Positions 28,867-31,617 of a stretch of DNA of 64,000 nucleotides are shown in pieces. The stretch spans positions 2,250,469-2,314,468 of the forward strand of contig NZ_KE650771.1 of NCBI RefSeq assembly GCF_000447295.1. Reading direction: 5' to 3'. The notes under the pieces are model-generated. The model was not told the origin of the DNA. It made no database searches and saw only the letters and a program-made list of their open reading frames with translations. Origin of the DNA: Fischerella sp. PCC 9431 (GTDB lineage: Bacteria; Cyanobacteriota; Cyanobacteriia; Cyanobacteriales; Nostocaceae). Both the position numbers and the translations under genes were made by a program. How positions within the stretch are numbered: position 1 is the stretch's first letter; every line of letters begins with the position of its first letter.

Positions 28867-29379
28867 ATGACTTTACCTAACTGGATTACATTTTCCCGCT
28901 TATTGGGCTTACCATTCCTGCTTTATGGTTTATACAACCCGACACCAACAGCTAGATGGGTGTGTTTGGCAATTTTCTTGGTTGCAGCAGGTACTGACTG
29001 GCTAGATGGGTACTTAGCGCGAAAACTTAACCAAATAAGTGACTTAGGTAAATTTCTTGATCCGTTAGTAGATAAATTACTGGTACTTGCTCCCCTATTA
29101 GTCTTGATTGAACTACGACAAATTCCAGCTTGGGGAGTATTTTTGATACTAGCACGGGAGTTAGCGATCGCTGGTTGGCGTGTAAATCAAACTACAATTA
29201 CCGGAGCGAATATTTGGGGTAAACTCAAAACTGTTAGCCAAATCATTGCGATCGCGCTTTTGATTGCACCATTACCAGAAGTTTGGAGAATTCCCTCTCT
29301 CATTGCTTTTTGGGTTTCTGTCACCCTCACCATAATTTCTGGAGCAATTTATCTTTTACCGCAAACAAATAGTGATTAG
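28867..29379 (+). CDS. pgsA: CDP-diacylglycerol-glycerol-3-phosphate phosphatidyltransferase
   Basis: 170 residues with four to five hydrophobic helices and the CDP-alcohol phosphotransferase motif: DGYLAR, eight residues, G, three residues, D, three residues, D (DWLDGYLARKLNQ then DLGKFLDPLVDK). It makes phosphatidylglycerol phosphate, the committed step to phosphatidylglycerol, an essential lipid of photosystems. It begins NWITFSRLLGLPF, as in other PgsA proteins. It is divergent from aspA across 141 bp of repeat-like DNA. Confidence 0.92.
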   Translation: MTLPNWITFSRLLGLPFLLYGLYNPTPTARWVCLAIFLVAAGTDWLDGYLARKLNQISDLGKFLDPLVDKLLVLAPLLVLIELRQIPAWGVFLILARELAIAGWRVNQTTITGANIWGKLKTVSQIIAIALLIAPLPEVWRIPSLIAFWVSVTLTIISGAIYLLPQTNSD

Positions 29380-29634
29380 TGGTTTTTTGATCTCCCCAAT
29401 CACTAAAAGGTTAAAAATTACAGCATCAAAGGTATGTTCATCTGCAACAAACTCTTCAAAAGTCATACCTTAAGCGTAATGCAGTATTTTCGTACAACTT
29501 GAAACAATATCTTCGCCTTTTAGTTTTAGTAGAAGTGCGATCGCTCTTATGAGTGAGTGAATTACTAAAATGAGTAAGCATTCAAGCATATTGAGAAAGC
29601 ATTTTACCTATTTGCTTTCTGATTTGATTAAAAT
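29380..29634. other. Spacer after pgsA
   Basis: No gene seen. It is a lead-in to the 42-bp tandem array; the last 60 bp already contain degenerate half-units (GAGTAAGCATTC, GAGAAAGCATTTT). Confidence 0.5.
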
Positions 29635-29823
29635 GAGTGCGTGATTTACTGAAATGAGTAGGTAAAATGGCATTTCAAGTGCGTGATTTACTGAAATGAG
29701 AAGGTGAAATGGCATTTCGAGTGCGTGATTTACTGAAATGAGAAGGTGAAATGGCATTTCGAGTAAGCAATATGGCATTTCAAGTGCGTGATTTACTGAA
29801 ATGAGTAGGTGAAATGGCATTTT
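29635..29823. repeat. 42-bp tandem repeat array with 21-bp half units
   Basis: Four near-identical 42-bp units at 29635, 29677, 29719 and 29782, with one 21-bp half unit at 29761-29781. Each 42-mer is itself two diverged 21-bp halves (GAGTGCGTGATTTACTGAAAT and GAGTAGGTAAAATGGCATTTC). Each unit contains the small palindrome GAAATGGCATTTC. The minus strand reads as a repetitive 70-codon frame, which I attribute to the unit length and not to a gene. Confidence 0.9.
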
Positions 29824-29923
29824 GAGAAGTCATTTTGGCAAAACGAGAAAGTAATAAGGCTTTTTGTTTACTAAAATCAAGCTTATGTGTTTTTTTGATG
29901 AAGTGCCAATTTATGGCGATTCT

Positions 29924-29933
29924 CCCAAAAGGG
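29924..29933. repeat. Left 10-bp direct repeat of the outer miniature element
   Basis: CCCAAAAGGG immediately precedes the left terminal inverted repeat. The identical 10-mer follows the right one at 30321-30330, as expected of a target-site duplication. Confidence 0.8.
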
Positions 29934-30004
29934 CTGCGGTGTACACACAAGTCTTATAAAGTTGCCTAGTAGCGTTTTGATCCCCCCTAACCCCCCTTAA
30001 AAAG

Positions 30005-30215
30005 CTACGGTGTATACACAAGTCAAGTCGAAAATCTTCAAGCTGAACCAATATCCCACCTAGAACTAAAGTTCCAGGCTAATAGCTTAAGTCCACTTCA
30101 TGGACTAAATCGAATTTCTCTATGAGTCCTCTTTAGAGGAGTTTTGCTATTAGACTCGGAATTTATTCCGAGGCGGGATAAATACACTGCACCAAGATTT
30201 GTGTGTACACCGTAG
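30005..30215. mobile_element. Inner MITE-like element (211 bp), nested
   Basis: The ends are CTACGGTGTATACACAAGTC (30005-30024) and, inverted, GATTTGTGTGTACACCGTAG (30196-30215). Perfect 10-bp direct repeats CCTTAAAAAG lie at 29995-30004 and 30216-30225. The ends belong to the same family as the outer element (consensus CTRCGGTGTACACACAARTC). The core (30058-30175) is a multi-hairpin module. It is non-coding. Confidence 0.87.
30058..30175. repeat. Multi-hairpin core module
   Basis: Hairpins in order: CCTAGAACT/AGTTCCAGG; then a long-range stem CTAATAGC/GCTATTAG enclosing AGTCCA/TGGACT and TCCTCT/AGAGGA; then CTCGGAAT/ATTCCGAG. The joint GGCTAATAG and the following TTAAGTC are shared with the module at 8.78 kb, while the stems differ but remain paired. 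Confidence 0.65.
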
Positions 30216-30330
30216 CCTTAAAAAGGGGGGGACCAGAATCAAAGTCCCCCTTTTTTCTAGCGTAGCGGCGCGCCAGCGCGGGGATTTAGGGGGATCAAAG
30301 GATTTGTGTGTACACCGCAACCCAAAAGGG

Positions 30331-30681: not shown

Positions 30682-31617
30682 TTATTTATTTTGCAAAATT
30701 TCCTCATCCACAGAAAAATCAATTTCTGCTTTATCTCGCCCTGACACTAAATAATCATTCTCAAAGGAATCTTTTAACCCAGAAATCAAATCATACTCAG
30801 GTTTCCAATCTAATTGAGTCATGGCTTTATTGACTGAAGCAAAAAAGTGCTGTGTTCGCATAGGGAATGCTTTACGCTTACCAAAATCGAAGTTTTTCGG
30901 ATCGTAATGAACGATTTTAATATCATCTGGTGATTTTCCAGCAGCAACAGCACAAGCACGGGCTAAACCATCAAATGTTACAAAGCGATCGCCTGAAATA
31001 TTGTAAATTTGTTTAACTGCTTGGGAATTACCTAAAACTTTGGTCATTGCTGTTGCTAAGTCTTTGACATGGCCTAGCTGGGTGATATGTAAACCATTAC
31101 CGGGGATCGGAATTGGGCGATCGCGCACAATTCTGTCAAAAAACCAAGCTTCCAAATCGTTATAGTTCTGTGGTCCATAAATATATGTGGGACGAATAGA
31201 AGTAAAGGGAATTCCTTGTTGTGTTAAGTAAGCTTCGGTTTCATGCTTACCCTTGTGGCGACTTTTTGGATCGACTGCATCACCTTCAATGTGTGGCATT
31301 TGGTCTGATTTGAGGTATACTCCAGCAGAACTCATGTAGATAAAATTTTGGACACGCCCTTGAAAAATTTCTGCAAGTGGTTGAGTATCAGTAAGTTCCC
31401 GTCCGTTATTGTCAAAAATGGCATCAAAATTCTCTTGAGAAAGTTTTTCTTTTAATTGGATGCTGTTAGTGCGATCGCCTGTAATTTGTCCTACACCCTC
31501 AACTGGTACTGGACGATTACCGCGATTAAAAAGCACTACTTCATGTCCTTGTTGTACCAGCAGTTGTGTGAGGTAAACACCAATGAATCGAGTACCACCC
31601 ATAATTAGAATTCGCAT
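30682..31617 (-). CDS. NAD(P)-dependent epimerase/dehydratase, CSP41-like atypical SDR
   Basis: 311 residues of the extended SDR fold: N-terminal GGTRFIG (NAD-binding), DNNGRE, and the segment SSAGVY. The sequence follows the cyanobacterial/chloroplast CSP41b group, in which the usual catalytic YxxxK is not conserved and some members bind RNA. A sugar-nucleotide role is also possible given the polysaccharide genes just downstream on the opposite strand. It starts at the ATG at 31617 with GGGGA close upstream. Confidence 0.82.
   Translation of the reverse strand: MRILIMGGTRFIGVYLTQLLVQQGHEVVLFNRGNRPVPVEGVGQITGDRTNSIQLKEKLSQENFDAIFDNNGRELTDTQPLAEIFQGRVQNFIYMSSAGVYLKSDQMPHIEGDAVDPKSRHKGKHETEAYLTQQGIPFTSIRPTYIYGPQNYNDLEAWFFDRIVRDRPIPIPGNGLHITQLGHVKDLATAMTKVLGNSQAVKQIYNISGDRFVTFDGLARACAVAAGKSPDDIKIVHYDPKNFDFGKRKAFPMRTQHFFASVNKAMTQLDWKPEYDLISGLKDSFENDYLVSGRDKAEIDFSVDEEILQNK

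Follow-up and report, generated by a model that had tools for sequence, protein, structure and literature searches.

A nested pair of miniature elements in Fischerella sp. PCC 9431 and its probable ISSysp3-like mover

In the genome of Fischerella sp. PCC 9431 (7.17 Mb in 8 contigs) two small elements with closely similar ends lie one inside the other, in the space between two convergent genes. This raises the questions of which element arrived first, and of what moved them. We analysed the pair within a window, by which we mean the whole 64 kb stretch of DNA under study, and positions are those of this stretch. In the open reading frames listed for the window, none of ≥ 60 amino acids overlaps 29934–30320, in keeping with the suggestion of a preliminary description of this DNA that movement must have been in trans, by a transposase from elsewhere. 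The features of the locus are as follows:

28867..29379, + strand: CDP-alcohol phosphatidyltransferase gene, pointing at the elements, uninterrupted
29924..29933: outer target duplication, left copy, CCCAAAAGGG
29934..30320, + strand: outer element, non-autonomous, with a type-B interior; 387 bp in all, or 166 bp once the inner element and the extra duplicate are subtracted
29934..29953, + strand: outer left end
29991..30004: CCCCCCTTAAAAAG, the left half of the palindromic type-B target, which the inner element splits
29995..30004: inner target duplication, left copy, CCTTAAAAAG
30005..30215, + strand: inner element, non-autonomous, with a type-A interior; 211 bp
30005..30024, + strand: inner left end
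30196..30215, − strand: inner right end
30216..30225: inner target duplication, right copy, CCTTAAAAAG
30216..30231: CCTTAAAAAGGGGGGG, the right half of this palindrome together with the duplicate
30301..30320, − strand: outer right end
30321..30330: outer target duplication, right copy, CCCAAAAGGG
30682..31617, − strand: NAD-dependent epimerase/dehydratase family gene, pointing at the elements, uninterrupted

The outer ends (CTGCGGTGTACACACAAGTC and TTGCGGTGTACACACAAATC) and the inner ends (CTACGGTGTATACACAAGTC and CTACGGTGTACACACAAATC) each form an inverted match at 18 of 20 positions, and the 10-bp direct repeats are exact around both elements and differ between them. The coordinates, repeats and end matches given in the preliminary description were thereby reproduced to the base, and its view that there were two separate duplications was supported. 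When the window was scanned for exact 10-bp direct repeats 80–800 bp apart around inverted ends matching at ≥ 16 of 20 positions, only the outer and inner elements were found, with none in 100 first-order Markov windows. Folding was far above that of shuffled sequences (outer element as DNA, z = −11.0; inner element as RNA, z = −10.0). Rfam gave matches only under the gathering score, and CTACGGTGTAYACACAA had no match in IMG/VR viral contigs. To the left of the elements lie tandem repeats (29635–29849), with period 42 at 29635–29764 and an overlapping period of 105 to 29849, out of which a 70-aa open reading frame (29608–29820) is read.

The end motif, for which the preliminary description had proposed a search of the host genome, was found there at 90 sites with ≤ 3 mismatches, compared with 0 for the reversed control, so dispersed copies are present. 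We fetched 39 stretches around such sites outside the window, and most of the host ends belong to three interior types, read by eye: type A, that of the inner element, of about 205–213 bp; type B, that of the outer element, of 145–167 bp when uninterrupted, with one expanded copy of 209 bp; and type C, ATTAAATCACTCC... and related sequences. Conservation of the 90 host ends is high to position 19, falling to 1.1 bits at position 20 and 0.03–0.8 bits at positions 21–30, while 260 distinct ends from elsewhere are strongly conserved to position 19, with 0.56 bits at position 20 and ≤ 0.31 bits beyond. The two elements share an end, as had been described, but the widely shared length is 19 bp and not 20 bp. 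Tn5 works with 19-bp ends. The exact 19-mer is present in 167 of the 217 genomes of the family, and a search for it through named genomes of bacteria and archaea gave at least 112 stretches, all listed ones being cyanobacterial.

Single-linkage clustering of the 101 elements shorter than 700 bp from all loci produced 11 interior clusters (one of 59, one of 29, four of 2 and five of 1), indicating that the ends are common to unrelated interiors. One family element of 589 bp (L121:2540-3128) has an interior consisting mostly of a 21-bp tandem repeat array, the unit being read by eye.

Removal of the inner element and one duplicate leaves AACCCCCCTTAAAAAGGGGGGG, a palindrome, as had been noted previously. 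We aligned 11 sister type-B copies with the window's outer element after this removal (the longer copies L018 and L029 were left out) and found that the palindrome, CCCCCCTTAAAAAGGGGGG or a close variant, is continuous in all 11 sisters. The uninterrupted palindrome of the sister copies is an empty site within the same genome, and it supports the order already proposed from the window, with the outer element inserted first and the inner element second.

Target duplications were scored as 9 bp exact, or 10–11 bp with ≤ 1 mismatch. Among distinct reciprocal end pairs from the pooled loci, a non-random sample collected through the end motif and through the transposase, 61 of 122 had a duplication of 9–11 bp (shuffled right flanks: mean 3.1, maximum 8 in 200 shuffles). 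The preliminary description took flanking duplications at other copies as a mark of the family, and this held in part: 9 of 29 end pairs in the host genome have a duplication and 20 lack one (the window's inner pair is counted here as L330, and its two outer ends are not each other's nearest partners). The lack of a duplication is what one would expect if copies are old or have recombined. The restored targets are palindromic: at 39 sites with exact 10–11-bp duplications, 5.49 of the 10 innermost symmetric pairs matched, compared with 2.51 at random sites, and the commonest form was CCTT-N2/3-AAGG. IS231 has a palindromic target preference, GGG-N5-CCC.

We then consider what could have moved these elements. 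In Nostoc sp. FACHB-892 the 19-bp end is joined to a shortened gene for a Tn5-like transposase and itself forms the last codons of that gene (LVCTP and stop). The 286-aa transposase piece encoded there had matches in 55 of the 217 family genomes at E up to 1e−30, some of them distant (33–38% identity); relatives at ≥ 60% identity, fragments included, were found in 34 of the 217 (hand count, E up to 1e−30). Among the matches listed, 14 of 30 transposase loci are bounded on both sides by the exact 19-mer. Related genomes contain full insertion sequences which begin and end with CTACGGTGTACACACAAGT and are flanked by exact duplications of 10–11 bp, the length seen also in most of the MITE duplications found:

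L298: 1487 bp insertion sequence, duplication TTCTAGGGGC
L300: 1487 bp insertion sequence, duplication CACGGACAAAG
L304: 1487 bp insertion sequence, duplication CCTTATAAAGG
L305: 1487 bp insertion sequence, duplication CTCCTGGGGG
L307: 1602 bp insertion sequence, duplication GGCTGAAGCC

Copies from Nostoc C057 and Acaryochloris differ very little in their ends and are flanked by exact duplications, and a Kovacikia copy has similar ends and no duplication. The ends of the window elements are 1–3 bases away from the exact 19-mer of the full insertion sequences. A full insertion sequence with these ends, which the preliminary description had suggested looking for, was thus found in relatives as 1487-bp copies, and the case for one type of transposase acting on the ends of both elements, previously argued from the ends themselves, is now strong. 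The described element most like these copies is ISSysp3, an IS4-like insertion sequence on plasmid pAQ7 of Picosynechococcus sp. PCC 7002, which is 1485 bp long with ends CTACTGTGTACACACAAGT (1 mismatch to the family end) and an exact 10-bp duplication, CCCTCTAAAT; its transposase is 66% identical to the 286-aa partner fragment. ISSysp3 is autonomous and comes from a different species, whereas the window elements keep only the ends. None of the 101 small interiors matched the three ISSysp3-like transposases or the insertion sequences at E 1e−3. The interiors of the MITEs thus show no likeness to that of the insertion sequence, and only the ends connect the two.

The partner transposase matches the NCBIfam IS4 family NF033590 (E = 1.8e−116) and the solved structure of the Tn5 transposase (E = 2.2e−37). 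Pfam DDE_Tnp_1 was above the cut-off for two of three transposases, with that of L304 just below it, and the Tn5-specific Pfam domains were below the cut-off. The YREK pattern, given for IS4 transposases in the part of PMC2266710 consulted, can be read in the protein as Y-(2)-R-(3)-E-(6)-K (YTWRWRIEQLFAILK). The last codons of the transposase and its TAG stop lie inside the 19-bp end (L295:2550-2568, L304:2343-2361), so that the end and the protein sequence constrain each other. The N-terminal DNA-binding part is in another frame, and the change falls at an A4-6/G5 run in 8 of the 8 elements in which the 5′ part was read (L298, L299, L300, L304, L307, L326, L328 and L329); from its sequence this is likely to be programmed −1 frameshifting. 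NCBIfam includes a model named IS4_FS_Nterm. The same part of PMC2266710 lists the absence of a frameshift among the hallmarks of the IS4 family, from which the partner gene departs, and because the protein and the ends fit we call the driver IS4-like with that departure.

The consensus end, CTACGGTGTACACACAAGTC, fits the IS50-subgroup consensus, CW------Y---CA-A--W-, at all 7 fixed positions, but the duplications of 10–11 bp differ from the 8–9 bp printed for that subgroup (PMC2266710, in the part consulted), and we therefore describe the driver as “IS50-like” and do not place it in the IS50 subgroup. It is like IS50/Tn5 in transposase similarity, YREK motif and end consensus, and unlike it in duplication length and in the separate frame of the N-terminal part. 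IS231, also of the IS4 family, has a similar duplication length (10–12 bp), but its ends begin with CAT (PMC2266710, same part) and those of the present family with CT.

Two further copies bear on how small elements may form. At L301:801-2361 a second 19-bp end lies 74 bp upstream of an insertion sequence and an 11-bp duplication surrounds the whole composite, which suggests that new interiors arise when the transposase pairs whichever ends are near. At L318 in genome G035 an internally deleted insertion-sequence copy of 1008 bp is a possible step towards a MITE.

Taken with the duplications, these results make it very probable that both window elements are MITEs which were moved in trans by the Tn5-like, IS4-family transposase of an ISSysp3-like insertion sequence with the same 19-bp ends. 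Such a transposase would bring two 19-bp ends together regardless of the DNA they enclose, and would insert the element by cut-and-paste into a palindromic site, preferably CCTT-N2/3-AAGG, giving a duplication of 10 or 11 bp; the cut-and-paste chemistry is what the protein family would predict. The type-B outer element would first have inserted into CCCAAAAGGG between the two convergent genes. Within type B lies a CCCCCCTTAAAAAGGGGGG-like palindrome which would itself be a preferred target, and the type-A inner element would have inserted there later. We infer that an ISSysp3-like transposase moved these particular copies.

The mover itself appears to be missing from the host. No full-length transposase of the ISSysp3-like clade was found in the host or in three congeners. 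A search of the host with the whole protein sequence (E ≤ 0.01) gave two matches: L080 (33–35% identity), which is the host's one transposase with a Tn5 DNA-binding domain, and a very weak one (E = 4e−4). Since the host yielded no close relative of the mover's transposase, the window copies are, judging by this one assembly, probably orphaned in the host now. A congener (G002) has a match of 83% identity to the N-terminal part, lying in a 459-bp fragment from the left side of the insertion sequence, end included, which indicates that the genus has held the mover.

Other candidates were tried and dropped. At the loci of 23 DDE_Tnp_1 matches in the host no end was found with fewer than 5 mismatches of 17. 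Where ends were found at 50 loci of Tn5-like transposases with PF14706 (30 from the search and 20 by place, a subset of the matches in 57 genomes) they were of other types, the closest being at L074, with 4 mismatches of 19 but a right end of the CTATCC type. The L080/L085 clade of the host genus had no such ends and often formed inverted pairs. Such pairs were seen in three relatives (G001:C42, G095:C170 and G212:C17), some of them near contig ends, and the host's copy of this clade (G000:C1:6732084-6733454) lies less than 4 kb from the end of a 6.74-Mb contig. No convincing likeness emerged when 8 elements' interiors were compared with 13 transposases belonging to other clades.

It should be considered whether the nest came from a single event or from recombination between copies, for example as a composite which was assembled elsewhere and arrived as a unit. 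Duplications are absent from many members of the family, and some members look recombinant, with a good target on one flank and an unrelated sequence on the other, and a second type-A-in-type-B nest exists in the host genome (L029). In that nest the inner element has the opposite orientation, sits at a near but non-identical place and has no duplications; the window nest and L029 are thus not copies of one another. Both duplications in the window are exact and differ from each other, which recombination would not readily produce, and we regard this origin as very unlikely. It should be noted that, of five nested layouts (++−−) present in the loci examined, the window nest is the sole one with duplications around both elements, which makes it the cleanest case and not a typical one.

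The movers could instead have been other Tn5-like transposases with similar targets, such as the clade with ends CTATCCATTACCCACATC, which also makes duplications of 9–11 bp in CCTT..AAGG-like sites (e.g. CCTTGTAAGG and CCTTAGTAAGG), or the host's own L080. This too is improbable to a high degree: the ends of other clades, where found, differ in the middle, the identical 19-mer was seen only on ISSysp3-like copies among those examined, and any candidate end in the 3.2-kb locus of L080 has at least 5 mismatches of 19. Strong folding and a place between two convergent genes would also suit fixed, REP-like palindromic repeats with a structural or transcription-end role and no mobility. The exact and different duplications, the many dispersed copies and the identical ends on a transposase-encoding element speak against this, as do two congeners (G002 and G003) which keep both neighbouring genes and lack the nested element, leaving a reading which we consider scarcely credible. 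The spacer between these genes in G002 and G003 is a different sequence, giving no clean empty site for the window locus, and in G001 just one of the two neighbour genes was found there. For two other copies in the host genome (L001 and L030) the flanks in relatives were diverged or rearranged, and no empty sites were found.

Cyanobacterial MITEs have long been known (PMC10969869 and PMC3542288, in the parts consulted), and elements of this kind, among them Nezha, the MITEs of Anabaena PCC 7120 and the type II MITEs of Anabaena sp. 90, are similarly small and gene-less with inverted ends. For Anabaena sp. 90 the consulted part of PMC3542288 reports 147 MITEs, the ends of which resemble no insertion sequence of that genome; for the window family a partner was found, though in other genomes. 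Open-licence papers gave no hits for part of the end sequence together with cyanobacteria, or for ISSysp3. The family may be a known one under another name, such as Nezha or the PCC 7120 MITEs. As it stands, the window pair belongs to a family of MITEs that goes with an IS50-like IS4 element, and the palindromic target of the family, CCTT-N2/3-AAGG, is carried by one of its own interior types.

What was an anonymous nest of repeats has become part of a family with a probable mover. More tentatively, and at slightly less than even chances, the single 19-bp Tn5-like end may be a free-standing module across the Nostocaceae, which brackets unrelated interiors, takes up flanking DNA through neighbouring ends and persists in many genomes that lack the transposase, while the target palindrome of one interior type acts as a landing pad for later arrivals. 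With the end in 167 genomes and transposase relatives in 34, the 217 genomes are a natural set for the study of MITE mobilisation in trans and of orphaning. The 19-bp end, the unrelated interiors and the palindromic target suggest a natural counterpart of the mini-Tn5 elements used in the laboratory.
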